A stretch of 64,000 nt of DNA, from contig JALQPE010001957.1 of assembly GCA_030407315.1 (NCBI GenBank), positions 58,435 through 122,434 on the forward strand, read 5' to 3'. Made by a program: the position numbers and the translations under genes. Origin of the DNA: Asparagopsis taxiformis (Eukaryota > Rhodophyta > Florideophyceae > Bonnemaisoniales > Bonnemaisoniaceae). This document shows positions 20,405 to 54,774 of this stretch, piece by piece; the first letter of the stretch is position 1; each line of letters starts with the position of its first letter. Under the pieces are notes generated by a model. That model had not been told where the DNA came from, ran no database searches, and was given only the letters and a program-made list of their open reading frames with translations.

Positions 20405-20414
20405 CGCCCCCCTC
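20405..20414 (-). other. polypurine tract of outer element
   Basis: On the minus strand the sequence GCGAGGGGGGCG abuts the 3' LTR, as expected for the primer of plus-strand DNA synthesis. It fixes the element orientation as minus and shows that this edge is a genuine element end. Confidence 0.75.
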
Positions 20415-20603
20415 GCTAAGTCCGAGAGACCTCACGAGCTATATTCTCGAGCCGTGTAATCAGTCTCCCATGCTCAAGTATAGTTCGGTAGTGGCTGTAA
20501 CCAGCCTTTCTGGGGCGAGATATAGTTTTTCCTTAGTGCTTCTCTGAAAGCGCATATGCGTCAGTTCATAGAAAACGTTTCCGTGGCGTTCGCCTTCCGT
20601 TCA
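20415..20603 (-). other. 3' non-coding part of outer element
   Basis: Between the MOT1 fragment and the polypurine tract about 190 bases show no recognisable coding match. They may be native 3' untranslated sequence of the element or a further unrecognised captured piece. Confidence 0.35.
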
Positions 20604-21222
20604 TCATCTTGATAGTATTCCACATATTCCTGCGATACCGCTCGATAAACTCGTCTGAACGATCCTGCCGACTGCGCTCTTCGGCGGCCCGGCATAATGC
20701 AGAAGCCCTTTGAGAACATTTCCAAAGAATCTTTCCGCTTCTTGAATCCAATGGGCTACAATTGTGCTCGGGCACACGGCCAAAGATGGGTAGCAAACTC
20801 TATTCGCTGATACAATAGTATAGTTACCTGCGATCATACACAATGTCATCGAAGTCTTTCCAAGTCCCATGTCGTCGCACAAGCCCCCATGTAGACCATA
20901 TCTATTCAAAAATGCCAACCAATCCAAGCACTCTTGTTGATATTTCCTCAGGGTGATACCATCTCCAATTTCTACTGGTAGTTCGTAGTGTGCACGGGGT
21001 TCTGTGCCCAGCAATTGTCCCAGAAACTTCCGGGCATCTTCCCTCTCCGCAGCCATAGATTCACTCATCTGCGGGTCGTCAGGGGTCCCTCCTTCAAGAG
21101 GCATCAGGCGTACAAGCGTTCCAAACACTCCAGCTGAGGCGTCTCGTACGACCTCATCTTCATCAACCATTCTCGTCTGCGAGTAGGGGAACAAGCCTGG
21201 TCACCACATTCTGCATACCTTC
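20604..21222 (-). pseudogene. MOT1: MOT1/BTAF1 fragment, second part (helicase motifs I-Ia)
   Basis: This continues the MOT1 reading at 26723-30225 once gypsy A and one TSD are removed. It contains the end of the HEAT-repeat region (LVRLMPLEGG), the linker, then the start of the Snf2 ATPase lobe with the Walker A motif in DDMGLGKT, motif Ia (LAVCPSTIVAHW) and LLHYAGPP. The family then continues for several hundred residues, which are absent here. The joined frame runs through VVTRLVPLLADENG into a stop, and the ATPase part is in another frame, so there is at least one frameshift. MOT1/BTAF1 is the Snf2-family remover of TBP from DNA; this copy lacks most of the motor and cannot be active. Confidence 0.8.
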
Positions 21223-21514
21223 TGCTGCACCAGCAATGTCTACTGTGCATAATGGGGTTGCTATTGATCCTATTGGATGATCCATTTATACAGCCTATTT
21301 CTATTTCGCGCGACAGTAATTTCCGTTTATCGGACGCTATCGGGTATCCGAATATTGACTCTAATGCCCATTTCATCATCCTCATTCCAGCATATTTGGC
21401 TAAGCTATACGTATCTATATAGGCGAGTAGTGAGGCAGTGAGAGTAAAGGAGACAAGCGTGTCACTACTTTTTTCTTGCCCGAACGTAAACCGGCGAAGC
21501 AGGAGAAAGCAAGA
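21223..21514 (+). repeat. 5' LTR of gypsy A (292 bp)
   Basis: It begins TGCTGCACC and ends GCAAGA. The end is placed from the 5-bp TSD; a 1-base shift with a 6-bp TSD (accttc) is equally possible. I saw no difference from the 3' LTR. Confidence 0.88.
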
Positions 21515-21572
21515 TTGATCAATCTGCTAATTCTTTGACACACTACGTCTCTTTGTTCGTCTAGTTCATATA

Positions 21573-24500
21573 ATGAGTTCTGAATCTAACCAGGCATTTA
21601 CAACTGGTCAGAATGCATTTGTGCCAGTCAGCCATCCAGAGCTGAGAAGACTGGGTCGAAAAAATGTACGGACGTTTCTAAAAGAGCGAGAGTGTTACCT
21701 TCTCAGAGTGAAAGATGCACAAAACTCAGGCAGCAATGTATTGCCTGTGTCACTCGTTTCCTCTGTGGACAGAGACTTGCTACTCTCTACAATACCACTT
21801 GGCGTGTTTGGTTCTTCGGTACAAGAGATCGATGATCTGACAGATGAAATATTGGAGAAGTGGTTGGAAGATAAGGACTCTGTGGCGCTGGAATCTATAT
21901 CATTGGAAGAACTAGAAGGGGCTGTGAACTCCTCAGTCAGGATTAATGTTAACGAACCAGATGCCGAGATGAGGATAATTTCTTTATTCTCTGACTATCG
22001 CACACTTCTGAGAAACAAGAAGTGGGAGCGTCTCATAGACGACAGTCCGAAGACAGCAATTGAGCATGTCACTCGGCTGTTGAAGCCAGATGTGCTCAGA
22101 CAAAGAATTGAATCTGATCTGGCACTGAATATTAATCATATTGAAGATGATTGGGCACGATTCTACTCAAGAGTTTTAAAGCGGGCTATTGACTGCGAAG
22201 AGTACATTCCAATTCGTACCACTCTGAAAGCCAATGATACTCAATCATCTAATACTCAAATCGGAAGGAAAGGTAAATGGCGAAAGCGTCGTGGTGCAAC
22301 ATGTGATGATGCTGTTAGAAACATCCAATCTCCTTCAAAGGAAATAGCTCCCACGGCCAGCAATACTACTCCAAGAATGTCTATGGCTGTTGACAAAGCC
22401 AGTCTACCCACATGCCTTAATCCTTCCTGTAATGACAGACATTATCTCAAGAACTGTCCGAAGACGTCTGCTTCACAACGTTTGAAATTGATCGCGGACT
22501 ATCGTGCAAAAAGGAGCCAAAATGAAGCTTCACCAAAGAGAATGAATCTCTTGTCACAAGAGACAGTCATGCCAATGTTGGCAGAAACAGACAACTCGGC
22601 TATTTTCGCCGAATCCCCTGACAAACTGCAGCCAGGACGATATCAAGGAAAGCTTGCAGGTGTGACAGATGTCATCGTGAATGGTGACTACGGCTCAGAC
22701 CACGCTGCTCTTTGTGATGCTCACCTGCAGGATTTGGCCAAAAAGAAGGTGTTTGTTCAGGTCCTTCCGCTTTCATCCCCTATATGGATGGGAGTTGCGG
22801 TTGACCCGACTAAGGATGACGATTCTCCAGTGCGCTATGCAGCGCATAAAAAGGCGCGCATATCTATCACTATTGACACACCTGCTGGTCCACTGAAGTT
22901 AAGAAATGTGCAATTCCTTGTTTTTAATGAACACATGTCTGAAGTACTACTATCGCGACCGCTACTGCAAGCAATTGGTTTTGATCTTGACAAGCACTTT
23001 GCGACTGTTCGCAATAGATTCAATGATGTTGACTTCTCACATATTGGATTCTCGCAAGAGCTAAAAGGCTCTGATAATGAGACGGATCCGATAGCTCCGA
23101 GTAGGCTTTCGCGTCTATTGCTAGACAAATCTGAACATACTAAGCTGCAGTCTGTAGACGATCTAGCTGAGCATACAGAAGATGTCGTAGCTGCTGACAG
23201 CCCGACTGATATGGATGTTCCATCACCTTCTTTCTATGGTGATGTACCTGATGATGACCCCATACCTGCCGATGACCCAATTGTTACTGGAAGTAACTGC
23301 AATGCAGAGACTAAGAAGCATTTGGAATCAATGCTGCATGAAGCTGTAGAGAACGGCCTGGAAAATGATGCAGCTGCCGAACTAAGTAATCTTCTCATGG
23401 AATATATAGATATATTCCGCACTAAGATTGGCTGTGATCCTCCAGCAAATATACCGCCAATGGAAATATCCCTTGTCTCTCATGCAAAGCCCGTTAGGGT
23501 TAAAGTCAGGCGATACTCACCTCCACAGGCTGCCTTTCTGCGCAAGAAAGTGGAGGAGCTACTGTCAATGGGACTGATTCGCGCAAATAATAGAAGTGCG
23601 TGGGCATGTGCTCCTTTAATTGTTCCCAAAGCTGGACCGGAGGAGTTTAGATTCACTGTAGATCTAAGACCAGTGAACAGTCAAACTATACCGCATGCGT
23701 GGCCAATGCCGGACTTGGAATCTATGACATCTCAATTGACGAGAGACACATGCTATGCCACTTTAGATCTATGTCAGGGATACTGGCAAATGGCATTACA
23801 TGAGAACTCTCAGGAATGTCAGAGTTTCATCACTCCTGACGGGGTGTTTAGTCCCACTCGTGTACTACACGGTGCCACCAACGCTGTGTCATACTTCCAA
23901 AGCTCCCTGCAAGCCGTGTGCATACCTGTAAGGGACAAATTGTTACAGTGGATCGATGACATTCTGATTCACTGCACATCAACGCGCGATCTTTTGGATA
24001 CCCTACGAAAGATTTTCGAGCTTTTCCGTACGCATGGATTGAAGCTTCACGCAAAGAAGTGTCGCCTTTACTTGGAATCTGTGAAATGGTGTGGAAGGAT
24101 TATTTCTAAACATGGAATACGCTACGATCCAGACAGACTGCAGGCATTACTGGATTTATCTTCACCAAAAACTGGTGCTGACTTGCAGCAATTTGTCTGT
24201 GCTGCTAATTGGATGCGTCCATCCATTCCAAAGTTCACATCGATCGTCGCGCCGCTGAGTGAGTTGCTTGAGCAGGTATACTCTCAGGCCAAAAGCCGCA
24301 CCAAACGTGCAGTGGAAAAGATATCACTAAGCCCACTATGGAGTTCAGTCGCCCACAACGCATTTGAATATGTTAAAAATGCGCTGCACAATGCCGCAAC
24401 TCTTGCACATCCAGATCCCGCCAAGCTCCTATGCTTGTTTACCGATGCTTCTGATAAGCATTGGTCATCAGTGCTAACTCAGATACCCCCTGTGGATGCC

Positions 24501-26420
24501 GACCTGCCTTTTAATGAGCAGGGGCATGAGCCGCTAGCATTTCTATCTGGGACATTTACAGGATCCAGTGCACGCTGGTCTACTCCAGAGAAAGAAGCTT
24601 TTGCAATTGTAGAGTCTGTAACACGTCTCGATTACATACTTATGCGTCCAGGAGGATTTAATCTATTTACGGATCATCGTAATCTTGTTTTTATATTCAA
24701 TCCAGCGAGCGTCAACTCTTCTATTTCCAAACACGTCGCTAATAAGATCGAGCGATGGGCAATGAAGTTATCGGCCTTCCGCTACACTGTAGTACACATT
24801 CCTGGTGAGGAAAACTGCTGGGCTGATCTTTTATCTCGTTGGGGTGCTCCTGAGGACAAATCATATTCTTCCGGGAGTATTAAGGCCTTGTTCACCTGCC
24901 CACCAGCACCTGACCTGGATCCTGATTTTGAGTGGCCTTCGGCTGCCTGTGTTCGTCAGGCACAGCAGTTTGCCATTTCGAAAAGGGAGGAATATCCTCC
25001 CAATCGCACTGTTCGGAAGCTATTCGTCAATAAGGATGGTGTAGTATGGATTCCGTCTCATGCAACAGAGCTTCAGTTGCGCATATGCGTTGTTGGACAC
25101 TGTGGAAGAGGTGGACACCGAGGTGCAACTACAACTTTTGAGAACATTTCAGATTACTTTTACTGGAAAGACATGAAGTCTGATGTCGTAACGTTCTGCA
25201 ACACGTGCCTGCACTGTTTGGTCACGACAGGAGGTCACAGAGAGCCGCGACCGTTTGCACATGCGTTGCACAGTGACTCTCCTAATGAGATCATACATTT
25301 TGATTTCTTATATATGGCTAAAAGTACGACAGGGTACTTATATCTTCTCATTATCAAGGATGATGCATCCTCATATGTAATGTTGAAGCCATGCATGAAG
25401 GCTGATGCAAGCTCCGCAGTAGAAGCATTACTGAACTGGTTCTCTTTGTTTGGAGTGGTTTTGATGTGGGTTTCTGATCAAGGGCCGCATTTTAAGAACA
25501 CAGTGATGTCTGCTTTGAACAGAAACTTGCATGCACATCATCATTTTACGACTGCATACTGTCCCCAGTCTAATGGCACTGTGGAGGTCGTGTGTAAAGA
25601 AGTGCTGCGCGCTTCAAGAGCACTGCTATCTGAATTTAGACTTGAGGAGGAGGAATGGCCGGCAGTAATCCCACTAGTACAGAGTATTTTGAATCACTCT
25701 AAGCGACCGTCATTGGGAAATAGAGCTCCTGTACAAGTCTTTACTGGCCAATGTGCGGACAACCCGCTACGCACACTATTCCCACCTACTGTACCAGTTG
25801 CTAAAGAGCTCGAGCTGGTACACGCTCAGAAACTCATGAATATAGAGAAGGTGATAGCGACACTTGATGATATTCATAGAGATGTCGGTCAACGCAAACA
25901 GAAAAAGCGTGAGAAAGAGGCAAAAGCGCATAATGCGAAGACTAACGTTCGTGATGTCAATTTTGATATTGGAGACTTCGTGCTGGTTGCGCAGAGAATA
26001 CTCAAGGACGGACATAAATTGAGAGTGAAGTGGCGTGGACCCCGCAGGGTTGTCAACGCCAAGTCACCTCTTGTGTATGAAGTTGAGGATCTCATCACCC
26101 ACAGTATCTCTGTGGTGCATGCTAATCGAATGAAGTTATACGCAGACTCCAAGCTTAACGTCACTGAGGATCTACTTGACTCAATTGCGCATATCAATCC
26201 ACATTACAACAAAGTGGAAGAATTTCTAGACCTTAGATACAATGCAGACACAAGTCGCTATGAGGTCTTGACACGATGGTTTGGGTTTGATGACGAGGAG
26301 CCAGGATGGGAACCATTTTCTATCATGCAAGAGGATGTACCAGATCTGCTCACCCAGTTTTTAACGAAGTATCCAGATCAAGATGTGGTCCGCGCAGCTA
26401 CAAGTGAGGTTCGCCTCTAA
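21573..26420 (+). CDS. gypsy A Gag-Pol polyprotein (1615 aa)
   Basis: A single frame encodes Gag and Pol without a frameshift. Gag has a zinc knuckle of form C-X4-C-X3-H-X4-C near residues 280-294. The protease-like site near 370 reads GDYGSD where DSG or DTG is expected. Reverse transcriptase covers about 640-840 with LDLCQGYWQM and the catalytic WIDD near 792 in place of Y[LV]DD. RNase H follows with TDASDKHW near 960. Integrase has the HHCC finger (about 1170-1215), HFDF, SDQGPHFKN and GTVEVV carrying the DDE residues. A chromodomain (WEPF) ends the protein near 1545-1605. It is closely related to the protein of gypsy B. Confidence 0.9.
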   Translation: MSSESNQAFTTGQNAFVPVSHPELRRLGRKNVRTFLKERECYLLRVKDAQNSGSNVLPVSLVSSVDRDLLLSTIPLGVFGSSVQEIDDLTDEILEKWLEDKDSVALESISLEELEGAVNSSVRINVNEPDAEMRIISLFSDYRTLLRNKKWERLIDDSPKTAIEHVTRLLKPDVLRQRIESDLALNINHIEDDWARFYSRVLKRAIDCEEYIPIRTTLKANDTQSSNTQIGRKGKWRKRRGATCDDAVRNIQSPSKEIAPTASNTTPRMSMAVDKASLPTCLNPSCNDRHYLKNCPKTSASQRLKLIADYRAKRSQNEASPKRMNLLSQETVMPMLAETDNSAIFAESPDKLQPGRYQGKLAGVTDVIVNGDYGSDHAALCDAHLQDLAKKKVFVQVLPLSSPIWMGVAVDPTKDDDSPVRYAAHKKARISITIDTPAGPLKLRNVQFLVFNEHMSEVLLSRPLLQAIGFDLDKHFATVRNRFNDVDFSHIGFSQELKGSDNETDPIAPSRLSRLLLDKSEHTKLQSVDDLAEHTEDVVAADSPTDMDVPSPSFYGDVPDDDPIPADDPIVTGSNCNAETKKHLESMLHEAVENGLENDAAAELSNLLMEYIDIFRTKIGCDPPANIPPMEISLVSHAKPVRVKVRRYSPPQAAFLRKKVEELLSMGLIRANNRSAWACAPLIVPKAGPEEFRFTVDLRPVNSQTIPHAWPMPDLESMTSQLTRDTCYATLDLCQGYWQMALHENSQECQSFITPDGVFSPTRVLHGATNAVSYFQSSLQAVCIPVRDKLLQWIDDILIHCTSTRDLLDTLRKIFELFRTHGLKLHAKKCRLYLESVKWCGRIISKHGIRYDPDRLQALLDLSSPKTGADLQQFVCAANWMRPSIPKFTSIVAPLSELLEQVYSQAKSRTKRAVEKISLSPLWSSVAHNAFEYVKNALHNAATLAHPDPAKLLCLFTDASDKHWSSVLTQIPPVDADLPFNEQGHEPLAFLSGTFTGSSARWSTPEKEAFAIVESVTRLDYILMRPGGFNLFTDHRNLVFIFNPASVNSSISKHVANKIERWAMKLSAFRYTVVHIPGEENCWADLLSRWGAPEDKSYSSGSIKALFTCPPAPDLDPDFEWPSAACVRQAQQFAISKREEYPPNRTVRKLFVNKDGVVWIPSHATELQLRICVVGHCGRGGHRGATTTFENISDYFYWKDMKSDVVTFCNTCLHCLVTTGGHREPRPFAHALHSDSPNEIIHFDFLYMAKSTTGYLYLLIIKDDASSYVMLKPCMKADASSAVEALLNWFSLFGVVLMWVSDQGPHFKNTVMSALNRNLHAHHHFTTAYCPQSNGTVEVVCKEVLRASRALLSEFRLEEEEWPAVIPLVQSILNHSKRPSLGNRAPVQVFTGQCADNPLRTLFPPTVPVAKELELVHAQKLMNIEKVIATLDDIHRDVGQRKQKKREKEAKAHNAKTNVRDVNFDIGDFVLVAQRILKDGHKLRVKWRGPRRVVNAKSPLVYEVEDLITHSISVVHANRMKLYADSKLNVTEDLLDSIAHINPHYNKVEEFLDLRYNADTSRYEVLTRWFGFDDEEPGWEPFSIMQEDVPDLLTQFLTKYPDQDVVRAATSEVRL

Positions 26421-26430
26421 AAGAGGGGAC

Positions 26431-26722
26431 TGCTGCACCAGCAATGTCTACTGTGCATAATGGGGTTGCTATTGATCCTATTGGATGATCCATTTATACA
26501 GCCTATTTCTATTTCGCGCGACAGTAATTTCCGTTTATCGGACGCTATCGGGTATCCGAATATTGACTCTAATGCCCATTTCATCATCCTCATTCCAGCA
26601 TATTTGGCTAAGCTATACGTATCTATATAGGCGAGTAGTGAGGCAGTGAGAGTAAAGGAGACAAGCGTGTCACTACTTTTTTCTTGCCCGAACGTAAACC
26701 GGCGAAGCAGGAGAAAGCAAGA
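26431..26722 (+). repeat. 3' LTR of gypsy A (292 bp)
   Basis: This copy of 21223-21514 is followed by TSD ccttc and then the MOT1 reading frame. Confidence 0.9.
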
Positions 26723-29700
26723 CCTTCCCCAGGTATAGCATGAACGGCGTCTGCGAGACATGAGGGACCATAGTCTACATAACCAGTATGAGGGGCAGCG
26801 CATGCTTTGATGACGTATGGAAAGAGCGAAGCAACAGACGCGTGGAGCCCGGGATCAACATATCCCACAATAAAACGCATGATAATCAGAGCTTCTATGA
26901 CATCACGAGTTGCCGATCTGAAGTCTGTAGACTTCAATGGATCTTCTAGACGGCTCCAGAGCCATGGTAGTTGAACGAACAACTCCTTCTTGAACTCTTG
27001 ACAGAACGCTCGGAAAGACGATATAGCCCCACGCTTGGCGAGGGCAGCTCCATCTATTTCAATTCCAACTGATGCATTCATTGAGTTCATAATCTTTTTG
27101 TCTGAGATAGTTTGGTCCGCAGTTAGATGCTTCGTTAAATTCTTCAACATAAGACTTAACGGTTTCTTGGATTCTCTCGTTGAAAGACGTATCGCCAATT
27201 TCGATAACGCTCTGGCAGCAGATTCCTGTAGGTGAGGGTTCTTGCTTGTTTTAAGCGCAGCCATCAGAGATTTTATGAACGGTCCAACTTTTAGAGGAAG
27301 GGAGTACCCAGGAGCTGATACAAGAGAAGCAGTGGCACTTGATGCTAGCGCAACCTTATTGGAGTCTTCACGAACACCCATGTAACCTATGGATGACAAA
27401 ATTCTCATTCGGAGAGACTCGAATGATTCCAATCGACGCTTTTGAATACCTCCATCTCGCATCAAGTTCAATAGATATTCCCACATGTCACCAGTTACAA
27501 GCTGACTCATGTGAGGCTTCACAAGCAATGCATGGTAAGCAGCCGTTGGATAGTCACGCGCACTCACAGCCTTCTTACCATCGGCTAAAGATTGCTTCAT
27601 GGTTCCAATAGTCGAAATTTCGGCTGCAGCTGCAGGCGGAATGGTGTCGACAAATGCAAGAGAATCTGAGAAGAATGAACCAGCTGAGACACCCACTTCA
27701 GCAATAGGACACTTCCCTCTCCCTTCCACTTCTGCTTCGAGGAAACCGCATATTATCGAGTCAAAAGTGAACGCTGGAGAGTTCGACAGTACTGCCCACT
27801 GGCCACATACGTCCGTTGCAACCCGACGACTAGTTGCATATGGACCCTGAAGAGCTTCGCAGAGATGAGTTCGTAAAGTAGAATCGTCCGCCGGCCAAAA
27901 AACTGCAAGCAGACCTAAGGCAGCCGCTGCGTTGTGTTGCATTTTAACAGCGTCATATGGACCCTCTACGACAGTTGCTGAGTCTCCATCATGCGCAGTT
28001 TGCGGAATGACACTGCCACTTTTCTTCGCCTTCCTCGCTTTCGCAGCGCGACGAGCAGCAGCAGCCGCACTCCTACGCCGAGCAGCGGGAGTAACTTTCG
28101 TTTTAGTCTGCGTCTCGTCGTACATACCAGCCTCAGCTCGTGTCTCATGTGACGAAACTTGTAACCAGTGGAGCAGCAAAGGACCAGCAATCTGAGGTAG
28201 GCTATGGGCATGTGTCTGGCTAGCACCAAACGCTTTCAGCAGTCTGGACCATACTGTTCTCGACACTTCGATTATATCTGTTTCAGTTTCGAGTAGAATA
28301 TTACGAAATAAGCGGGTGAGCATTTCTGCGCAAAGTGGTCGTGCCCATACCAATAGTTCTTCGTCGGGGAACACCATAGTACCCTTCTCTAATAAAGTAA
28401 CAGCGGCACACCTGACAGACTTGGAACTGTGCCGCAAAAAAGGCCAGAGGCGAGGCACAAGCTCTACAAGAACTGTAGAAATATCACCCGCTTTACCACC
28501 TTTCGATTCGGGTTCGTCAGCGGCTCCGGTTTCGTCATCTGAGCATTCTGTAAACATGTCGAGTTCCAGCCAGAGCCGATTGCATCCAGAATGAGATGGG
28601 CTGCTGGTAATTTCGGAGAGCAGCCGAAGCACGCTACTAGTTGAAGCGCTGATATCATCAAGATCTAGTAATGCCTCCCACAATATGGTGACCAGCCGGG
28701 GCACGGAATGTGGTTGACAGTACATAATTTTTGAGGCAACTGGGAGAAGAGCTTCTGCTGCGATGGCACGGACATCATCATCTTGGTCTCTCAGCCCTTC
28801 AGTTATGTTAGAAAATGTTAAAGCGAGTAGTTCAACTGCCATAGTGTCCTTCGCTGCGAGCACATATCGTATACCGAGGAGAGCTGCATGACGAACTTCC
28901 CATTGACTGCTGCTTCGAGTTCTTAGTAAGTAGAATATCTTCCTCACCAAGCTCAATGTGTTCTCTTGAGACATAGCACGAGCAGATGCACCAATAGTCA
29001 TTGCTGCGGTCTCACGAACAGGCGCTACTACGGCATCACCGACGAAATCGCCAAACCGATCCATGGCTAAGACACATAGTAGACGACAACATACATCTTC
29101 CAACCATCTCGCGTTTTCCTCATCACCGGCAGGCCCCGGTGTGCACCGACCTGCACTACCCGCATGTCGCATGAGAATTTGCCGAAGACCAAGTGCAGCA
29201 CCGTGACGCCATTCCCAAGATGGCTCCAGCAGGCCCATTTTGAGGGCCTCACAAGTTGGCTGAAAATCCCAAAGATGAGAGCCAAATGCCTTCTCAAACT
29301 CTTCATCTTCCTCATTGTTCTGTTTAGCCATCTGACTCAGCGAAAACACTTCTGCACCACCACCATCAACTTCACCGTTGGGGGCGTCGCCAGGACCACG
29401 GGGTCGCTTAGGGGGCCTGCCCAAACCCATGTTGGTACTCTGGCGATATCTCTTTTTCGCTTCTCGTTTAAGGCGATTGCGCTCCCTTGCACTGAGAGTC
29501 TCACCAGACATTTCGGCGACAACATCCGCTGTTGGTAAAGTGGTGGGAGAGAGGCTCTTCTGAGCTGATTGCACCTGCACAGAAGATTGACGAATGACTA
29601 GATCCTCGTCTTTCAAGCCCAACATATCTGAAGAATTTGTGAAGCGATCATCCAAGCCAAGATCTGCCTTGAGTCTTGCCCTTTGGGCTGCGATATCCAT

Positions 29701-30225: not shown

Positions 30226-30242
30226 AATGATAGCGGGGACTA

Positions 30243-30480
30243 GAAAGTAGTTGGAAAAATGAGTTGGAGGAGACGTGCTCATGATCATGTGTTTCGGCTG
30301 TTGTAATAGCATGGCGGTGATCCATTCGTTCGACTCCCAACAGTTGACTGAAAAACTCTGCACTCTTTCCTCATTTCTCCACACGGTCACCTCACCGTTC
30401 TCATCGCACGTGTACATTTGCCGTGCAGAAGGGTCGGCACAGATCGTCAACAAATATTCTCGATGTCCACCATAGCTATA
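30243..30480 (-). pseudogene. WD40-like blade fragment, fused in frame upstream of MOT1
   Basis: About 75 codons read as one WD-repeat-like blade: GGHREYLLTICADPSA, then YTCDENGEVTVW, followed by a variable stretch. The parent protein cannot be named. It follows the INO80 remnant with no visible spacer and runs in frame into MOT1. The start codon of MOT1 at 30225 remains inside this longer frame. It looks like a small piece of a third host gene in the mosaic. Confidence 0.5.
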
Positions 30481-32006: not shown

Positions 32007-32069
32007 AAGCGCTTTCTCTTAAGAGCATCTGTTGAGGTAGGCCGAATCCGCACCCAGCCACTCTGCGGT

Positions 32070-36751: not shown

Positions 36752-36795
36752 AAACGACCTACCAGTTAACAATGCCACGGTAGGTCGTGGGGGGC

Positions 36796-37317: not shown

Positions 37318-37322
37318 CCATC

Positions 37323-38388
37323 TTCTGCTCCTGTGTGTGCGTTAATATCAGCTGCGGCTGTGTTTTTCACGGACTTGCATGTTTTTTCTTCTCTTCCTCT
37401 GCAGCTCTTTCTCGACCATCTTCTTCAGTAGTCGCCTTTGTCTTTGCTTGCAAAAGGAAAAGAAGGCCTCTGACTGGCCGAGCAAAAACTTCAATTTGTT
37501 CTTCTGGCGTTGGCCCCTTTCATCAGCTTCCTGTCTTCGATGCTCTTTAGCTCTCGCTATCAATTTCTCGCGTTCTTCTTGCCTCTCCTTGTCCTCTTTC
37601 TTCCAATAACCCGGGAAATCACGCAGGATACGACGCGCCCTTCTGTGGGCGTCATCGATGACTCGAACGCTGCGAAATGCATACTCCTTAGATTCTCTCG
37701 CACAGGCGAGAGCAATACCCTTTGGGGGACGGTTTTGGCCGGATATATAGTTACTACGGGCTTTGACAAGCTTGGCAATTTCACTGCATTTGATGGCCGA
37801 GCGATAAGCTGTTGTGTAATCAATGGGACGCTGCCTGGGACGTTCATCCTCTCTAGTGCGCTTCGCATTTCTTTCACCTATAGGTCCTGCACTGGCTGGT
37901 CGCTTCGCAGAACCATTGAGACCGTTATCTAGGCTGAATAAACGACCAGTAGTTTTGCGACCTCCCTTGAGGATCTTTTTCTTAATAACGATTGAACCGA
38001 GTTCGCCACCAATAGACCTGTCCTTTCGACCAGCCCTGAATTTGGATTCTACACGGTCGAGGTCTCGTTCGAATGCAATCAATACCTCATGGTCATCGAA
38101 TGCGAAGGGGACCATTAAAGTCGAGCCGCAGATTCGCAGGGAGGAGACATCAGTCGGGTCATCATCCTTCACCCAGTCTGCGCGCATAGTGCGGGCTGCT
38201 AATTGGGGGTCAATGCATGTACGGCGTATTGTACCGGCCTTGGACAGAGCACCTGTGAACATGGTGGAGCGGGCGCCATCAGCTTGCTGTGGGGCCGGCG
38301 TTGATAAAGACAACAGGTTGTGCCGAACTATTGCAGAGTGAAAATGGACGTTTGGACGTGGAGGTCCTGAACAATTCATAAGGAACAT
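37323..38388 (-). pseudogene. INO80: INO80 fragment, N-terminal part with DBINO domain
   Basis: A frame of 346 codons starts at 38388. Its second half matches the INO80 DBINO region: RRARRILRDFPGYWKK, a long charged helix, then KLKFLLGQSEAFFSF. DBINO binds DNA and nuclear actin-related proteins in the INO80 complex. Near 37370 the frame shifts (the long ORF ends in REKHSRS, while the continuing frame reads KNTAAADINAHTGAEDG), then passes the TSD into 31484. The N-terminal half is less certain. The fragment is on the same strand as the outer element's gag-pol and is split by gypsy B. Confidence 0.82.
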
Positions 38389-38663
38389 TTAGATGCAGAC
38401 TCATTTCAAAATGTTGAAGTGCTGTGACTTGAACATGATCACAGACAGTGCACAAGTGGATCAACTCCGGAAAGAGGTACTAAACTGTTTGCTGGACCCA
38501 AAGCGCCATCACCTCGTTTTGAAATGATTCGATTCATGAGTGGCGGTACGAAACCTGAAGAATTCATAGCAAACTAAACGTTGCTTCGCTGCGTACTCAA
38601 CCCGCCAATGTTGTAATCTCTTGTTCGTGCCGAGCTTTCCTGTCTGTTTCCGCTTTCTTGAAA
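38389..38663. other. mosaic spacer inside outer element
   Basis: No coding match is recognised between the INO80 and DUF547 fragments. Confidence 0.35.
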
Positions 38664-39099
38664 TTAGCTTGCAGCTTCATCAGAGACGAAAAGAATTTTC
38701 GATATAGCGCCAAGAGATATGCGAGTTCCTCCTACGAGGTATTCGAATCGCATTATAATGTTCTCGAACTGGTCATAGTCTAGTACATCAAAAAAATCGC
38801 CGATGTGAAGACGTGCTTGTATGCTTAGTAGATTACACATTTTCACCAGGAAAGAAATCCGCTGTCTGTCATCAACAGACAGGCTTAGATCGGCATATTG
38901 CATTTCAGCAGCAGAAAGACAAAAACTTGTGGTACAACTCGTCCTGTACCACACTCATCATATCCACCAATCGATGTTCGTTTAGGCTTTGGTGTAATGA
39001 GCAGATCGCGGGCAGCTCGTTGAGAAGTTGGAAAGCAATTTCAGATGGATTCGTTCCTATAACGAATCTTGGATTTAACGTGGGAATGTTAAACACCAT
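38664..39099 (-). pseudogene. DUF547-domain fragment with frameshift
   Basis: Two minus-strand frames (39099-38905, then 38954-38664) join into one DUF547-like reading. The first has a helical lead-in (LLNELPAICSLHQS). The second has RISFLVKMCNLLSIQARL, where the family has a conserved asparagine-rich helix, followed by FEYLVGGTRISLGAISKILF, which matches the YNIGG...SLDDIE...ILR block. The frames differ by one base, so this is a broken copy of part of a gene. DUF547 proteins are of unknown function, often fused to DEP or glutaredoxin domains. It is one of the mosaic pieces inside the outer element. Confidence 0.55.
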
Positions 39100-40084
39100 G
39101 CTATTGATTCAATCCTTCTCATTCCATTTATAAAAAGGGAGTCATCTTTAATTTCATGTCGTCCGTAAACGTGATGATATTCTCCACTCCAATGAAGATG
39201 CTGCCCAATCTGAACAAAGTGGCCATCATAATGATGCATTGGGGAAATGGAATTGCATCAACGCATAATGAAAGCGCCCCCGTTGCATGCGCTTTGCTGT
39301 CATAGTATCAAAGCCAAGGGGTATCCCACCTGTGTGAACAATGGAGAGAGGAATACAAGTCGCATGCAAGGGAATCCACAATGACAATGGGTAGCCTTGG
39401 GAGAATTACCGACCAATGACACCGAAAGAATAGGCATCCACAGGGACAGAGAGGGTGCAGTAAGATTTCTCACCAGCGAAGTAGGCGACGAAAGTTGATA
39501 CGATCGACCAAATTGTTTGAGAAATGAGCATGCGAACTGGAATTGAACTAATGAGCAGTGGGGTAGGATTGGTTGGGTGCGGCGGCTCAGGCCGGTCGGA
39601 GCCAAGAATTCCGAAGCGCGCAGAGTAGGTTAGCGCGGAGGGAATTCCGTCATGTGTAAGGGTTGGATAGGATCATGAGGGGATTACAGGCATGGTAGAC
39701 AACGAGGGTGCCTGTAACGGTGAAGTAGTACCAGAAAAGGAAAAGAGATACAAATCCTGCATACGCGTAATTGACGCTGTTGTGAGTGCCATGAGGCAGT
39801 TGGAGCGACATTGGAGCAGCAGCAGTGTGATCGACAATCGGATAACTGGATAAATTCCAAGAATCCCATTGACTGTTGACCGTGATATAAAAATGTTCAC
39901 CGGCAGATAAATAGCCGAACTCGTGCCAAATTTGCAATCGATGCCCTTTGCCTCTCAACGCCAACTTTCGTTGATTGGCGCCCACCGCACCTATAACGAC
40001 GCAAATCGCAACTGCGCCCGAGAGAACATCGAAGACGACGATGCGGAAGCCTACCTGCTGTAAGGCAGTCCCGGACTCCCACAA
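39100..40084 (-). pseudogene. membrane-protein fragment, unknown family (broken)
   Basis: The frame 40084-39650 holds hydrophobic segments (IVVFDVLSGAVAICVVIGAVGA near its start and FVSLFLFWYYFTVTGTLVVYH near its end). Further membrane-like segments continue downstream in other frames to about 39300 (for example WSIVSTFVAYFAGEK). This looks like a decayed multi-pass membrane protein, but I cannot name it. It lies on the same strand as the other sense fragments of the mosaic. Confidence 0.4.
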
Positions 40085-41193
40085 GTCGCAACGCGAGATT
40101 GACCGCGCGTTGAAAACACGTCACGAAGAGAGATGCGCCTGCAAACGGCTTGTCGAACGCATTTCAGACAATGCGACATGGGCGAGGCCTGGTTAATTGG
40201 CGTCATATCCATGGCAGTGCGTCTCTTTGAAGATTTGGCAAGCATATCTAGTTTGCATACGCTTTACACGTGACACTGCAGTCGAATATGGCCATCAGCA
40301 GTTCCATACGCGTGTCCTCGAAGAAACTGCTGAACAAATCGCTCTGCGCCGATACGTCCGGCTGAGATGACCTGAATTGAACGCATCTTTTCGTGTGTGC
40401 GTCATGACATGAAGGAATTGTGCGGGACGAATTCGAATCGAAGGTTGTTTGGTAGATGGTTGATAGTTAGTGCTTGGCAGTTTTCTGCCCGTGAATGATC
40501 ATCCGCGGTGCAGTGTAAGAAATATTCATCATCTTCTATTTTCCAGATTTCATGCTTCCAAATCATCCGATGTGGTTACGTCGGGATGAAACAAATTGCA
40601 GCTTGGAGCAGGGGAGCGTTCTCGTCTACTCCTTCGAACATGTGTTTCGACACAATCGGAACTCCATTACATCGGGCTGCTCCATAACACAGAAGTGGTA
40701 ACCGTGACACCGTGTGCGACCGTGATCGATAAACGATCGATACCAAACACATAACACCTGAATGCTCACTCGGTAACGTCATCAACAATATGCTGTCAAT
40801 GGAGTAAAACATGGCGCATTGCAGACGAGTCCAATCCGACGAATGTTGTTGAACTAGCTTACGCGTCCCGCAAAAAATGTAGTTATGAGTTCTCAGCTCG
40901 ACGGCGTCTAGAACTTTGGTGCTGCGTGAGCGCACAGATAAGTTTGCAGCATTTGCCGATCGACCCGTTTCAACCGACGTCGCGTAGACACTGTTCGTGT
41001 CGAAGTTGGAACTATTGTTTGAGAACGGCTACCAGTCGTATGTGATAAACGCTGCGCATTGGCGGGATATATCAAATCAGGACATCGACTGGGAAAAGCG
41101 TCGCGATGAAAATGACTGTAAAATGGATTTAGAACGATAAAGGCGCTGTTTCATCACGCGGCATCCGCGGCGTCGCACTCGCTAGCGGCAACT
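40085..41193. other. mosaic sequence inside outer element, unassigned
   Basis: Frames on both strands up to 119 codons look partly protein-like (for example 40935-40576 minus, and a plus-strand segment near 40290 with QQFHTRVLEETAEQIALRR). None can be assigned. They may be further decayed gene fragments. Confidence 0.3.
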
Positions 41194-41540
41194 GTGGTAC
41201 GCGGCAAGCAATGTGCTGCGTTGATGTCACACGGGCACATCATCAGCGGATGCAGCGGCGCTGGAGACGCAGCTGGTGAAGCACATCCGTTTCAACGGCC
41301 GGTGACGGTAGTATCGTACATGCGCGAGTGTCTAACACATCCGCAGCACGGCTACTGCACTACACGACCGACGATCTTCGGGGCATTCGGGGACTTTATA
41401 ACAGCACCACCAATCTCGCCTGTATTCGGAGAACTGATCGGGGTATGGATCGCACACCAAGTGCGGCAACAAGACGTGTGACCGTTCCGTCTCGCAGAGC
41501 TGGGACCTGGCGACGGGTGATTAATGTCCGACGTTGTTCA
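41194..41540 (+). pseudogene. NDUFAF7: NDUFAF7/MidA-like methyltransferase fragment, first part
   Basis: This reads VSYMRECLTHPQHGY, then FGAFGDFITAPPISPVFGELIGVW, the N-terminal signature of the NDUFAF7 (MidA, DUF185) family of mitochondrial arginine methyltransferases that help assemble complex I. It continues PFRLAELGPG, the SAM-binding motif I, but with stops at 41479-41481 and 41518-41520 and GDG where GRG is usual. The copia element interrupts it at 41540; it resumes at 47434. It lies on the plus strand, opposite to the INO80 and MOT1 fragments. It is a dead fragment of about the first quarter of the family length. Confidence 0.78.
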
Positions 41541-42091
41541 TGTGGAATTCTTTGCAGTCACTGATGCATAACAATGTCTTGAAATTATCTCGTAACGATT
41601 ACGAGGCGCAAAAATGCGACTGACACGAAATCAGGAGAGTGGTTTCAGAAATAATTTAGTAGTAGTTTCAAACGGAGAGGTACTCATATTTAGTACATAT
41701 AGACATCATAGATGCCATCCAGGATACGTTAGCAACACACAGACGAAAAACAACAGAACAACATCTTCTAAATCCTAGCAAGGTATTTTGCTAGTCCAAC
41801 TACTTCGTTGAAGGCTGGAGACAGTGTAGCCTAAAGCGCTACAGCTCGACCACGAGTCTGTTAGAACCCCGCAACAGGCACCTCCCTGTATACGGTTGCA
41901 TCAACTTACAATTGGTAAGAGAACCGATATACCCGACACCAAGGCCCACCTCTTACGGCTTGCCAGAAATCGCGTATATTGAACTGCAATACTGACGACC
42001 ACTCCTCGACACACGTGTCGTGATTGTAACGTGTATTGTATAATCGATATAAGGTTATATTGATACCTAATATATTCTATCATTTTCGACA
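41541..42091 (+). repeat. 5' LTR of copia element (551 bp)
   Basis: Begins TGTGGAATTC and ends TTTTCGACA; same length as the 3' LTR. Confidence 0.92.
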
Positions 42092-42148
42092 GTTATAACT
42101 GTCCCGGAAGCAGCTGCAACAAGTCTTGGATAGATATAACCCGAAAAT

Positions 42149-45100
42149 ATGGCGAGTGCCGAGGATGAACCGGAGAACATAAATCAGATGACAATCGGCC
42201 AGGCAGCAAACCTCCAATATGAGCAAGAGATGATGGACGAGAATATTGCCTATAACGGTACTGGTAATGATGATATCGGTTTGGGTGACCCGAACCCACC
42301 AAACAATAATGCATCTACAGAGGATAAAATAGCATATGCCTATGATGTGAAAATATACTCTGCAGAAATGCTGGAATGTTTGAAGAAAGCAAACGTCACA
42401 GGGAAGGAACTATGGCTTGAATTCACTTGTACTTTTCGTGAGAGCTCAATCAAAGTAATGACAGCCGCTCAGCACGTCGCTTGGTCTCGATTCCTCAGAG
42501 AAAATGGAGTATTTGTGGAACAAAAGAGGGGCTTAGCAAGGTGGAAAACTCTGCGAAATTGTTTACTGGCAGAAAATTTCATTCCGTTACATGGATCTAG
42601 TCCACCGAAGGTACTGAATGATGAAATCGACTGCTCAAGAGAGCTGGGAGAGACCAGTGTGCAGGATGGAGATGATAAGACGAATGTTAATAGAAATACA
42701 TTACCTGCATCAAATGAGAAGCCTGTCACTTTGAAAAATATCGTTTCCTTATCGGATACTGTACCAACTTATGGAAAGGGGAGTAATTCCAGTGGATCCC
42801 TTGCAAATGAAGGAAAGAATGGCAAAAATCGAAATGGAATTGACTCATTGATGAAAGCTTACGCTCATCGTACTAAGTTTGCAGGATCTTTTACGGATGA
42901 TTTCGATGGAGCTATAGAACAGTACGAAACACTCGCAGCTCTATGCGATTTGAGTGAAGAAGACATGTCCAAAGGATTCCCAATAATGCTTACAGGGTCT
43001 GCATTCTCACATTACACAAGGAACTACGCAAAGAAATCCTTAAGGTATCCGGAACTTGTTGATGAATTTAGAGCTTGGTACACGAGTGAAGAACAGAGAT
43101 ACCGCTTGCTACAGTCATGGCAGCGTCCATCACTGCTCCGATCAATGGAAAAAGAACCGGAGAAGAGTGAACTTGAGGTATTTCGCAATGTAACTGACCA
43201 GCTAACTAAGATCCAGCACCAATTACACCGCTCTTACCACGACCCCCGTTTTCTTCGCGATCAGCTTCTAATTGCAGCTGATCTACCACATTTGCGCCGC
43301 TCTCTCATCGAAAAGATACCTAAAACTGCACAAGAAGCTATGCAACGTATTGCAACTCTGCTCTCATCCGAGCCGAAGTCAGCAGGCGCAAATTGCATCC
43401 ACGAAGGTCGTGATGAAATCAATTATGGTCTTGGAAATAGATATGGCGGACAAGCTCGTAAGAGCCTGAAGGGATCCTCTTTCAAGAGAAATAAGAACAA
43501 TTCAAGAACATCACTTGCATCAATCAAAGGCTGTTGGGTATGTGGAAAGCCACACCGTGCGCGTGACCATCACCCATCCGAAGATGTTATGAAAGCTTTG
43601 AATGATATCAAGAAGAAAAAGCCATCAGTATTATTTACTGTGGAAGATATTGATGAGATCCAAGCATTATACATGTCTATATCAGATGATGTCCACTCAG
43701 ACAGCGATAGCAGCGAGTCTGAAGCTAATATCATTGATGAAACAAGTGACGAGAATATTGGTCATATGCATGAAATATATCTTGCAAACAAGTCATTCCT
43801 TCACGGCATATCTTGCAGGACATTTCAATCTGACCTAGCTTATCGAATGGATGAGATGCACGCTTTGCTACTCGCAGGCGAATCAGATTCCAATTTTAAG
43901 GGTGTCATATTGGATACTGGTGCAAACAGAAGATCAGCAATGTGTCTAAACCAGTACCGCGCCTATTGTTCTGAATTTATGGTCCCTATGCGGATAGACT
44001 ACTCTGACAGGCATAGCATTGTTGGAATAGGTGGTTCTACTACCGTCATTGGAACTGCAATAGTTCCCATTCCATTTGCTGATCTGAACATTATCATTGA
44101 TGTCAAATTCAAAATACTACGTGACAACTGCCCTACACTTCTCTCGCTCAAAGACATGATAGAGAATGGACTGGACATAAGCATACAAGACAAAACTATC
44201 TCATTCAAACATAACATACAGAGCTTGACTTTTGAGAATGATTTCCTCAAACACAAGTGGAGTCCGAAGGATACATCCTATGCATTATACACTGAAAAGG
44301 AACTTCGAAGACTACATCGTGTTTTTGGTCACCCTACGGTCACTGCTCTTGGAAAACTACTTCGCAATGCCAATCCGAATGAGTTCACAGCAGAAGTTAG
44401 GAAAAACATCGAGCAGATAACCAACATGTGTAATACCTGCAAAAGGTTTTCATCCAAGCCACGACGCTTCAAAATATCCGTTGGTTCTAATGATCTACGG
44501 TTTAATCACATCGTTGCAATTGACATCATGATGTTAGCAGGGAAAAATGTGCTCCATGCTGTAGATGAAGCCACTCACTATACAGCAGCAACCTTCATGA
44601 GGAATAACACAGCAGAAGAGACGTGGAAATCTTTACTGCGCTGCTGGTCCCGTGTTTACCTTGGACCACCCGACTACTTGCGGATTGACCAGGGATCTAA
44701 CTTTGTTGCGAAACACTTTCGCGACTCCGCCGATGCAGATGGAATTTCAATACTCGAAGCACCAATCGAATGCCCAAACACAATGTCCCACGTTGAAAGG
44801 TACCATGCACCTCTCCGTGCAGCTTACAACAAGATAAGGGATGCTTTACCACGTTCTGAGAATGATACTGAATGTCTGCAACTAGCAGTTAAAGCTGTTA
44901 ATGATACAATTGGACCAGAGGGCCTGTGCCCCACTGTTCTGGTGTATGGTACACTTCCGAGACCTCCGCGACGTACACCGGCCGACACACAGATCCAAAG
45001 AGCTAAGACACTGGATTTAGCAATGGATGCTGTACTGAAGGAGCAGTCTAAGAGGCGTATCGCATTTGCCCTAAGGCACCCCAGTAGTCCAAAAGCTCAG

Positions 45101-46843
45101 GAACAAGAAGAACAGCTGTCTCTTCTTCCCTCTGGAGCTCCCGTTCTTGTGTACCGCCAAGGTACAAAGAAATGGGAAGGGCCATATCCCCTCGTTCATA
45201 TATCAGGACGGACAGTTGTTGTCCAGCTACCTCATGGACGTAAGATATTCCGATCAAACGTAGTGAAGTCTGCTAACAGCTCTGAGAACAGAGAAACCTG
45301 GTGTGATATGAATTACATACAATATGCATACCACATTAGCGACAATTCCCGGGAATTCTCTTCCAGTAGACGAAGTGAATTGAACGGACTACAGGCAAGA
45401 GAAACATTTGAAATTGTTCCAATGAGCTCTGTACCACCACGTACACGCATATATGGATCTAGATGGGTTGATACTGTGAAGGAAGTCAATGGAATGACTG
45501 TCAAAAAGTCAAGGTTGGTTGCACAGAACTTCAGAGATAAGGGAGCGACGGAAATTGCAACAAAGTCACCTACAGTGAGCCGTATGGGCCAGCGGATTGC
45601 AATTGCTACGGCTGCAATGTTTCCGCATCACAAATCATACGTGAGGGACATATCACAGGCGTACATACAATCCGAATCCAACCTGGAACGCATGATATAT
45701 ATTAAGCCACCGGAGGAGATGAATTTATCTCATAACGAAATTCTTTTGGTGAAGAAGCCGTTGTATGGTATACCGGAAAGTGGATTGCACTGGTTTGCAA
45801 CATACCAATCACATCACATTGAAAAACTTGGAATGAAGGCATCCAAGGGAGATGTATGCGTATTGTACAAAACCGATGACAGTCGACTCACGGGTGTCAC
45901 TATCTTACAAGTAGACGATTCTTTCGGGCACGGAACAGCAGAATTCCTCGAGAAGGAGGAAGCTGAATCAAAACGATTTCAATGTAAGCCGCGCAAACTA
46001 CTATCGCCAGGAGACTCAGCTCTTTTTAATGGATGTAATATCTCAATGGACACGGATGGAGCTTACACTATTTCCCAATCAGAGAAACTTCGACAAATGC
46101 TGCCACCCACCAATCAAGAGGATCTGATAAGCACTAGAGCAAAGATTCAATACATTGGATCATGCACAAGACCTGACCTCTGCTCTCCCGTGCAATTGAT
46201 GGCATCCAACGTCTGTAACCCTTCAGAAAAGACGTTCAAAGACATGGAAACGATTACTAATTGGTGTCGTGAGACGGCTGGAGTGGGTATCAAATATATT
46301 CCATTGGATATAGAATCAATTAGACTTTCACTGTTCACAGACGCATCATTTGCAAATGCCGACAAGCTCAAATCCCAGCTGGGATTCGTTTTGGTTATCT
46401 CTGATCACAATGGCAATGCTAATATCCTTCATTATGGAAGCACTACTTGCAAACGAGTTGCTCGATCTGTAATGGCAGCTGAATTACAAGGATTAGTTTA
46501 TGGATTTGATCAAGCCTATGTTGTAAGGGAAATACTTTCAGACATTATAGGTCGAAAAGTGGATTTGGATGCGTATGTGGATTCACGAACAGTTTTTAAT
46601 GTCGTCGCCAAAAGCAGTATGACTCTTGAGAAACGTCTTCAAATTGATGTGCACGCCATACGTGAGAGTCATAAGAGAGGAGAGCTCCGATACTTGGCAT
46701 GGATACCAAGTTACGAAAACATATCTGACGGCCTAACAAAAGGCTTAATTGACTCTTCACATTCTTTATGGAAACTTATGGTAACAAATAAGCTCAGTTT
46801 GCAACCGAGTGGCTGGGTTGAATCGAAAACAGACGATAATTAG
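42149..46843 (+). CDS. copia Gag-Pol polyprotein (1564 aa)
   Basis: One frame holds the whole polyprotein. Gag has a variant zinc knuckle, CWVCGKPHRARDHH (C-X2-C-X3-H-X4-H), near residues 460-475. The protease site is LDTGAN near 588. The integrase HHCC finger lies near 725-770, then the DDE core with VAIDIM, RIDQGSNF and MSHVERYH. RT starts near 1105 (SRWVDTVKEVNG) with the acidic site QVDD near 1255 instead of YVDD. RNase H has FTDASFAN near 1395 and ends with an AWIPS...ISDGLTK signature. The order protease-integrase-RT-RNase H defines Ty1/copia. The frame is intact, so the copy may be active. Confidence 0.92.
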   Translation: MASAEDEPENINQMTIGQAANLQYEQEMMDENIAYNGTGNDDIGLGDPNPPNNNASTEDKIAYAYDVKIYSAEMLECLKKANVTGKELWLEFTCTFRESSIKVMTAAQHVAWSRFLRENGVFVEQKRGLARWKTLRNCLLAENFIPLHGSSPPKVLNDEIDCSRELGETSVQDGDDKTNVNRNTLPASNEKPVTLKNIVSLSDTVPTYGKGSNSSGSLANEGKNGKNRNGIDSLMKAYAHRTKFAGSFTDDFDGAIEQYETLAALCDLSEEDMSKGFPIMLTGSAFSHYTRNYAKKSLRYPELVDEFRAWYTSEEQRYRLLQSWQRPSLLRSMEKEPEKSELEVFRNVTDQLTKIQHQLHRSYHDPRFLRDQLLIAADLPHLRRSLIEKIPKTAQEAMQRIATLLSSEPKSAGANCIHEGRDEINYGLGNRYGGQARKSLKGSSFKRNKNNSRTSLASIKGCWVCGKPHRARDHHPSEDVMKALNDIKKKKPSVLFTVEDIDEIQALYMSISDDVHSDSDSSESEANIIDETSDENIGHMHEIYLANKSFLHGISCRTFQSDLAYRMDEMHALLLAGESDSNFKGVILDTGANRRSAMCLNQYRAYCSEFMVPMRIDYSDRHSIVGIGGSTTVIGTAIVPIPFADLNIIIDVKFKILRDNCPTLLSLKDMIENGLDISIQDKTISFKHNIQSLTFENDFLKHKWSPKDTSYALYTEKELRRLHRVFGHPTVTALGKLLRNANPNEFTAEVRKNIEQITNMCNTCKRFSSKPRRFKISVGSNDLRFNHIVAIDIMMLAGKNVLHAVDEATHYTAATFMRNNTAEETWKSLLRCWSRVYLGPPDYLRIDQGSNFVAKHFRDSADADGISILEAPIECPNTMSHVERYHAPLRAAYNKIRDALPRSENDTECLQLAVKAVNDTIGPEGLCPTVLVYGTLPRPPRRTPADTQIQRAKTLDLAMDAVLKEQSKRRIAFALRHPSSPKAQEQEEQLSLLPSGAPVLVYRQGTKKWEGPYPLVHISGRTVVVQLPHGRKIFRSNVVKSANSSENRETWCDMNYIQYAYHISDNSREFSSSRRSELNGLQARETFEIVPMSSVPPRTRIYGSRWVDTVKEVNGMTVKKSRLVAQNFRDKGATEIATKSPTVSRMGQRIAIATAAMFPHHKSYVRDISQAYIQSESNLERMIYIKPPEEMNLSHNEILLVKKPLYGIPESGLHWFATYQSHHIEKLGMKASKGDVCVLYKTDDSRLTGVTILQVDDSFGHGTAEFLEKEEAESKRFQCKPRKLLSPGDSALFNGCNISMDTDGAYTISQSEKLRQMLPPTNQEDLISTRAKIQYIGSCTRPDLCSPVQLMASNVCNPSEKTFKDMETITNWCRETAGVGIKYIPLDIESIRLSLFTDASFANADKLKSQLGFVLVISDHNGNANILHYGSTTCKRVARSVMAAELQGLVYGFDQAYVVREILSDIIGRKVDLDAYVDSRTVFNVVAKSSMTLEKRLQIDVHAIRESHKRGELRYLAWIPSYENISDGLTKGLIDSSHSLWKLMVTNKLSLQPSGWVESKTDDN

Positions 46844-46882
46844 CAATTTATGCCTCTACTGTGAAAAAGAAAAACCTCTGAG

Positions 46883-47433
46883 TGTGGAATTCTTTGCAGT
46901 CACTGATGCATAACAATGTCTTGAAATTATCTCGTAACGATTACGAGGCGCAAAAATGCGACTGACACGAAATCAGGAGAGTGGTTTCAGAAATAATTTA
47001 GTAGTAGTTTCAAACGGAGAGGTACTCATATTTAGTACATATAGACATCATAGATGCCATCCAGGATACGTTAGCAACACACAGACGAAAAACAACAGAA
47101 CAACATCTTCTAAATCCTAGCAAGGTATTTTGCTAGTCCAACTACTTCGTTGAAGGCTGGAGACAGTGTAGCCTAAAGCGCTACAGCTCGACCACGAGTC
47201 TGTTAGAACCCCGCAACAGGCACCTCCCTGTATACGGTTTCATCAACTTACAATTGGTAAGAGAACCGATATACCCGACACCAAGGCCCACCTCTTACGG
47301 CTTGCCAGAAATCGCGTATATTGAACTGCAATACTGACGACCACTCCTCGACACACGTGTCGTGATTGTAACGTGTATTGTATAATCGATATAAGGTTAT
47401 ATTGATACCTAATATATTCTATCATTTTCGACA
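46883..47433 (+). repeat. 3' LTR of copia element (551 bp)
   Basis: Matches 41541-42091 with one difference noticed; followed by TSD gttca. Confidence 0.92.
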
Positions 47434-47546
47434 GTTCACACGTTAGCGTGTCTCTCCGCACGACCGGTCGGCATCTCGTTATCCGAAGCGAGCGCGTCGT
47501 TGCGTGAACCACAAGCGCAAGTGCTTGAGGTTCACGACCTGTCAAT
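47434..47546 (+). pseudogene. NDUFAF7: NDUFAF7/MidA-like fragment, second part
   Basis: Once the copia element and one gttca are removed, the frame continues from MSDVV into HTLAC and reaches SASLREPQAQVL, where the family has its conserved EVSPxLRxxQ block. It stops at TAG (47542-47544), a few bases from the pol stop of the outer element on the other strand. This places the edge of the captured mosaic directly after pol. Confidence 0.65.
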
Positions 47547-47550
47547 GAAG

Positions 47551-54769: not shown

Positions 54770-54774
54770 TTGTG
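54770..54774. repeat. target site duplication ttgtg (right)
   Basis: Copy of 20070-20074; the LINE ORF1 frame resumes right after it. Confidence 0.93.

Follow-up and report, generated by a model that had tools for sequence, protein, structure and literature searches.

Serial capture of host gene fragments, probably from mRNAs, by a chromodomain Gypsy element of the red alga Asparagopsis taxiformis

A chromodomain Ty3/Gypsy element in Asparagopsis taxiformis carries fragments of several host genes, and these were quite probably copied from host mRNAs through template switching by the reverse transcriptase. The element lies in the 64,000-nucleotide stretch of DNA analysed here (the window, C1832:58435-122434 in an assembly of 141 Mb and 3156 contigs). 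It is best read as a Gypsy element that has captured pieces of host mRNAs one after another; the multi-gene mosaic is real and the cargo of the family has been mobilised. What is said of mRNA templates is read from the DNA sequence. One genome and one family give 13 mapped donors, with junctions and relative ages that can be read, and one of the captures is maybe as young as the insertion itself.

A single LTR element occupies window 20075-54769. It runs on the minus strand, and its 3' LTR therefore lies at 20 kb:

20070-20074, other copy 54770-54774, no strand: target-site duplication (TSD) TTGTG, read at both element ends
20075-20404, minus strand: 3' LTR of the outer element, from the LTR pair comparison
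54440-54769, minus strand: 5' LTR of the outer element, from the LTR pair comparison
54439-51911, minus strand: gag open reading frame (ORF) of the outer element, by ORF reading
51824-48120, minus strand: pol of the outer element (RT-RNaseH-integrase), by Pfam
48252-47554, minus strand: chromodomain ORF of the outer element, by a Chromo profile match

The two LTRs differ at one of 330 sites (99.7% identity), and the LTRs of the family (40 matches to the outer LTR were scored in the genome, of 62 candidates) are direct repeats that start with TG, end with CA and have, in six of eight copies read, an exact 5-bp TSD, as is expected of LTR retrotransposons. The pol domains run in the Ty3/Gypsy chromovirus order RVT_1, RT_RNaseH, H2C2, rve (Pfam), and the ORF after pol has a Chromo match of 32.0 bits against a cut-off of 25.1; a pol search gave relatives that are unnamed or generically named, with no named closest element among them. 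The G-rich tract GAGGGGGG, a candidate polypurine tract, stands immediately before the 3' LTR, and TTGGTCTCTCGACC after the 5' LTR is a candidate primer-binding site, without a tRNA match. When the element and one TSD are dropped, the LINE ORF grows from 659 aa to 802 aa across the empty site, which together with the LTR pair and the TSD bears out an earlier sequence-only reading of this DNA, in which 20075-54769 was taken as a single insertion into LINE ORF1 with the frame restored across it. Downstream of the interrupted LINE a direct-repeat array of 388-bp and 502-bp units occupies 57233-60374, and window 56001-57000 has a strong GC skew of -0.635 within one kilobase.

Three further LTR elements are nested in the outer element and are not part of its cargo:

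21223-26722, plus strand: N1, Gypsy, TSD CCTTC (LTR pair, TSD, Pfam; chromodomain match below the Pfam cut-off)
31485-37317, plus strand: N2, Gypsy with chromodomain, TSD CCATC (LTR pair, TSD, Pfam)
41541-47431, plus strand: N3, Copia-type (RVT_2), TSD GTTCA (LTR pair, TSD, Pfam)

Each has a 5-bp TSD and an LTR pair that is 99.8-100% identical, and all three were inserted later than the outer element; N1 splits the MOT1 piece, N2 splits INO80, and NDUFAF7 resumes beyond N3 to 47541. About 63% of 20405-47550, earlier read as a retrotransposon-bounded mosaic block, consists of these nested elements; that a gypsy element carries a multi-gene mosaic is supported. Without them the outer element measures about 17.5 kb, and the stretch from pol to the 3' LTR holds about 9.9 kb of cargo.

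From pol to the 3' LTR the cargo runs NDUFAF7, a family module, a membrane-like frame, DUF547, INO80, WD40 and MOT1, of which all except MOT1 are given here:

47439-47541, plus strand, antisense to gag-pol: NDUFAF7 part 2, 82.5% to donor C2141
41180-41535, plus strand, antisense to gag-pol: NDUFAF7 part 1, 87% to donor C2141
40162-41179, no strand: family module, in a block 85-87% common to C1913-type copies
39653-40120, minus strand: membrane-protein-like open frame, in a module present in other copies (39872-40177, 86-87%)
38447-39211, minus strand: DUF547-protein fragment, 89% to donor C2020, with 7 stops
37318-38294, minus strand: INO80 part 2, DBINO domain, 95.4% to donor C2139
30492-31483, minus strand: INO80 part 1, 94.7-95.2% to donor C2139, with a 61-bp exonic deletion
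30274-30452, minus strand: WD40-coding piece of 179 nt, matched in a sister element by WD40-coding sequence

The NDUFAF7, DUF547, INO80 and MOT1 pieces, named in the sequence-only reading, each match by DNA an open gene at another locus of the genome, taken as the donor (C2141, C2020, C2139 and C1915 respectively). The matches run to 3.5 kb and chance is therefore excluded as their source; the searches of the alga's own genome scored 40 matches each, of 109, 81, 82 and 59 candidates. The antisense orientation claimed for NDUFAF7 is confirmed against its donor. The proposed WD40 blade does match a sister element and is the sole named window piece for which no open donor gene was found in the genome, and the proposed membrane protein has its open frame and could not be named, Pfam at E 0.05 giving no match for any of the ten open frames searched within 38.7-41.5 kb. 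With that null result the DUF547 and NDUFAF7 identities rest on the donor DNA match and on the donors' own Pfam matches. Identity to donor climbs toward the 3' LTR across the four identified donors. NDUFAF7, the least donor-like piece (82-87%), is common among element copies, and 11 of the 15 PF02636 match rows in the genome are element copies of the truncated piece. Since the older DUF547, NDUFAF7 and INO80 pieces carry stops or frameshifts, most of the cargo is likely to be non-functional.

Cargo changes from copy to copy on what is nearly one backbone. The sister element on C2716 has a gag-pol 99.6% identical to that of the window over 6.2 kb and a different pol-to-3' LTR region; the two closest sister copies have the LTRs in common and gag-pol at 97-99.6%, with different fragments. 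In five other copies read through (C2716, C1913, C2343, C434, C190) the zone from pol to the 3' LTR measures 5 to 7.7 kb, and its contents vary, with some modules in common. By Pfam the sister cargo includes pieces of oxysterol-binding protein, PRP8, DNA polymerase B, E1-E2 ATPase, WD40, NB-ARC and SNF2, and own-genome DNA searches place its donors on C1902, C436, C2147, C2482, C193, C1780, C152, C100 and C2212; the SCYL1-like (C1902) and ABC-transporter names were given by eye and the Sel1 and citrate-transporter matches are below Pfam cut-offs. These nine and the window's four make 13 donor loci whose letters were read, all in the same genome. The identified host pieces all sit between pol and the 3' LTR, and a variable cargo zone is a habit of the whole family; the earlier account of the mosaic, right as to multi-gene capture, had missed this zone as well as the two layers of MOT1. 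In C1913-type cargo (L011:6260-6805) PRP8 and DNA polymerase B pieces are fused in frame, in one open frame. For the PRP8 piece (L011:7328-7914) at least 25 additional matches, at 79-80%, lie on six contigs. They form inverted pairs with a spacing of about 10.3 kb, a pattern that would suit a second element family with a PRP8 piece in its terminal inverted repeats.

MOT1 is the largest window piece (20674-30280, split by N1), is 99.6 and 98% identical to donor C1915, and includes DUF3535/HEAT and the beginning of the SNF2 domain (Pfam):

20674-20912, minus strand: old MOT1 capture, donor about 5491-5730, common to the elements on C2343 and C190
20826-21222, minus strand: new MOT1 capture, C-terminal-side end (SNF2 start), with a 127-bp exonic deletion at 21177/21178
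26723-30280, minus strand: new MOT1 capture, main stretch, 99.58% to C1915

Over donor 5579-5707 the window MOT1 has seven derived changes that are also in the C2343 and C190 elements, and at donor 5457, 5464, 5473 and 5491 the window is as the donor is and those two elements differ. Shared changes on one side and donor-like sites on the other indicate that an older MOT1 scrap was lengthened, up to donor 1501, by fresh copying of MOT1, with the crossover within window 20826-20912 (donor 5492-5578). A genome search found the new part in two places only, the window element and the donor. Over the 3559 sites of its main stretch it departs from the donor at 15, of which 8 are non-synonymous, and because this divergence is similar to that of the LTR pair the fresh capture was probably made in the same cycle as the window insertion. 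The MOT1 start codon is kept at 30225, which is 55 nt in from where the fragment ends, and from this ATG to N1 the window frame is open for 1167 codons. In the donor the open frame begins 102 nt before the first in-frame ATG, the likely start codon. The captured range takes in 55 nt ahead of this codon, and the TATA-like TTTATAAA further upstream, at donor 1447-1454, is left outside. The edge of the copy would seem to fall inside the likely 5' UTR, as is expected of an mRNA-derived copy. Among named sequences the MOT1 donor comes closest to those of the red algae Chondrus crispus (59%) and Gracilariopsis chorda (57%), in keeping with a florideophyte host, and the best unnamed matches reach 64%.

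Nine junctions between sources were read on letters and share 5, 8, 5, 2, 2, 5, 7, 10 and 1 nt. Eight of them share 2-10 nt, and the remaining one (C2212/C100, 1 nt) lacks genuine microhomology and includes letters that match neither side. With that junction set to 0 the mean is 4.9, against 0.72 under a null of random joins of donor sequences, in which none of 100000 draws reached the observed value. At two of the nine (MOT1/WD40 and the WD40/INO80 side) a sister element replaces the gene as one or both partners, the WD40 piece sharing 7 nt with MOT1 (CGTGCTC) and 10 nt with the INO80-side sequence; donor overlaps of 7, 6 and 4 nt, from the match table only, are left out of the count. Donors are sense to gag-pol in 11 of 13 cases (one-sided binomial 0.011, C848 and C2482:45180 being left out), the antisense two being NDUFAF7 and the cys-rich C152. 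For all nine donors tested the captured range lies inside a single ORF, taken as the longest of the stretch; C2147, C2482, C1780 and C152 were read around their junctions only and are outside this test.

Six internal gaps relative to the donors were compared with GT...AG on the donor's sense strand. The gaps of 97 bp (C100 WD40 gene) and 158 bp (OSBP) fit and the other four do not, where about 0.06 fits would be expected over 16 placements, in a test made after seeing the data. Since the donors have an open frame through these two stretches, the gaps would stem from exon-internal splicing, either in donor RNA or in element RNA, and they lend mild support to an RNA source. The 97-bp stretch (L078:989-1085) lies in the open WD40 frame of the C100 gene and is exactly missing from the C2716 element. 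The 127-bp MOT1 gap was rejected as a lost intron, the donor frame being open there and the end not AG, and the INO80, P-ATPase and PRP8 gaps have no GT-AG fit; the P-ATPase junction was placed with an approximate string, and for several gaps the exact lengths are slightly off the BLAST lengths. Comparison of the fragments with their parents, suggested in the sequence-only reading, gives identities from 82% to 99.6% and shows no clean intron loss, the donors being without clear introns where they were examined.

Much of this might also have come about at the DNA level, if microhomology-mediated replication template switching or end joining had pasted pieces of nearby or distant genes into resident elements which were then amplified. 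The 2-10 nt microhomology also fits such repair, as does the junction with unmatched letters; with donors lacking clear introns in the examined ranges splicing gives no clean test, and the two antisense donors count against an mRNA template. Such an origin, the main rival, is nonetheless improbable given the sense bias, the single ORFs in nine of nine tested ranges, the confinement of the identified host pieces to the zone from pol to the 3' LTR, and the halt of the MOT1 copy in the likely 5' UTR. Copying from mRNA is favoured because the excess of sense donors, the lie of the captured ranges within open frames and the place where the MOT1 copy ends all agree.

Captured sequence has moved on within the family. 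C434 and C2507 have the same cargo, 100% identical over 5801 nt, at unrelated sites and each with its own exact TSD (GGGGG and TCATT), and so cargo was mobilised after capture. The sequence-only reading had named the same mosaic at a second locus as proof of mobilisation; this pair supplies it for a cargo type different from that of the window, whose new MOT1 part is single-copy outside the donor. For C2915 and C1913, whose left flanks are unrelated, 1.5 kb of cargo was compared and is 99.87% identical; C1913 and C1914 are no such clean pair, having flanks in common (96%). C3020 as a second insertion with the C2716 cargo was dropped, its left edge being PBS-like element sequence: the 22 nt before the LTR (L003:1479-1500) resemble the outer element's primer-binding side at 95%, an arrangement as in tandem or recombined elements. 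Cargo has apparently been exchanged as well. The INO80-to-NDUFAF7 block of the window recurs on C460 and C1850 at 98.6-99.3%, where it adjoins a more distant pol end (92.6%), and the pol end of the window is 99.4-99.6% identical to that of C2716; the point of exchange from C460-like to C2716-like sequence is at about 41361-41410, within the shared NDUFAF7 piece. Between C460:36000-38451 and C1850:29370-31821 a 2.45-kb cargo segment runs opposite ways in contigs that are otherwise collinear, which may be a real inversion or a local misassembly.

That assembly had joined unrelated sequences between near-identical LTRs is very unlikely. The assembly is fragmented, and the inverted segment of C460/C1850, together with C2276, whose right flank alone is the same as that of C2507 and without a matching TSD, shows that local errors or rearrangements exist. 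Yet exact 5-bp TSDs were read in six of eight copies (window, C2716, C1913, C2343, C434 and C2507, with the C190 outer end not resolved and C2276 without a match), the window MOT1 is set apart from its donor by 15 scattered differences and the 127-bp deletion, and the INO80-to-NDUFAF7 block recurs on two other contigs. Least credible is a gene-collecting DNA transposon of the Helitron or Pack-MULE kind that gathered the fragments and then entered the gypsy element, for although elements of this kind do assemble mosaics from several genes (maize Helitrons with as many as nine gene fragments, according to the available text of PMC6431247), inverted repeats of at least 60 nt are absent from the window, Helitron end motifs being outside that search, the internal TSDs read belong to three LTR elements, and the cargo of sister copies varies piece by piece. 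The gene-capturing DNA element that had been offered as one of two mechanisms is therefore without support, and the other, repeated template switching, is favoured because of the sense orientation of 11 of 13 donors, the 2-10 nt microhomology at eight of nine junctions and the open-frame ranges in nine of nine.

If the fragments were copied from mRNAs by template switching, host mRNAs would have been packaged in the virus-like particle beside the element RNA, and minus-strand synthesis from the 3' LTR would have jumped to an mRNA and back at 2-10 nt matches. Later cycles may then recombine cargo among co-packaged element RNAs inside shared stretches, as the crossover in the window NDUFAF7 fragment would exemplify, and a captured fragment could provide the homology for re-capture of its own donor. 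For the window copy the old MOT1 would have been copied, with a homology crossover to MOT1 mRNA, a run to near its 5' end and a jump back via CGTGCTC. A wider proposal, which we put forward tentatively and at somewhat below even chances, is that a standing cargo zone samples host mRNAs, swaps cargo between sisters and re-acquires donors via captured scraps, by which a fragment could lengthen in the direction of a complete gene. The order and rules of capture (match length, sense bias, end-of-template jumps and homology-guided re-capture) are directly testable in this one family.

For a red-algal LTR element with captured host genes no published case was found in the open-licence literature searched. 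Retroviruses capture oncogenes, and src-deleted viruses regain src. By analogy the window family resembles them in that host sequence would be joined via short matches and a leftover fragment would be the homology for re-capture, but the window system is a retrotransposon and, unlike src, its cargo has no known selected function. Some LTR elements have occasional ORFs captured downstream of pol, and the giant Gypsy elements Burro and Ogre have large internal regions and extra domains (PMC6431247); as the available part of that source presents them these are occasional ORFs or family-level features, whereas the content of the window family changes copy to copy. For the chimeras of Triticeae Veju and BARE-2, switching between unrelated RNAs in one particle has been proposed (PMC13317346, in the portion available); BARE-2 is an element-element chimera and Veju took up unknown sequence, whereas the named window pieces come from protein-coding host genes. 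A survey of maize B73 found gene fragments in 425 full-length LTR elements, from at least 189 captures, and in its accessible text and under its conditions no element with more than one standard nuclear gene (PMC2774510), in contrast to the four identified donors in the one window element. Maize Bs1 has three donors (a membrane ATPase, a xylan endohydrolase and a beta-1,3-glucanase; PMC13317346, in the portion available), and the window element is like it in being an LTR element with internal fragments of several host genes, here with open donors elsewhere in the genome. The window family is unlike Bs1 in its long gag and pol ORFs, in its 13 donor loci across the family, in the variation of its cargo on near-identical gag-pol and in the capture of one donor twice in one element. 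Gene capture by LTR elements is mostly described as a single fragment per element, and the window family has 13 mapped donors in one genome.
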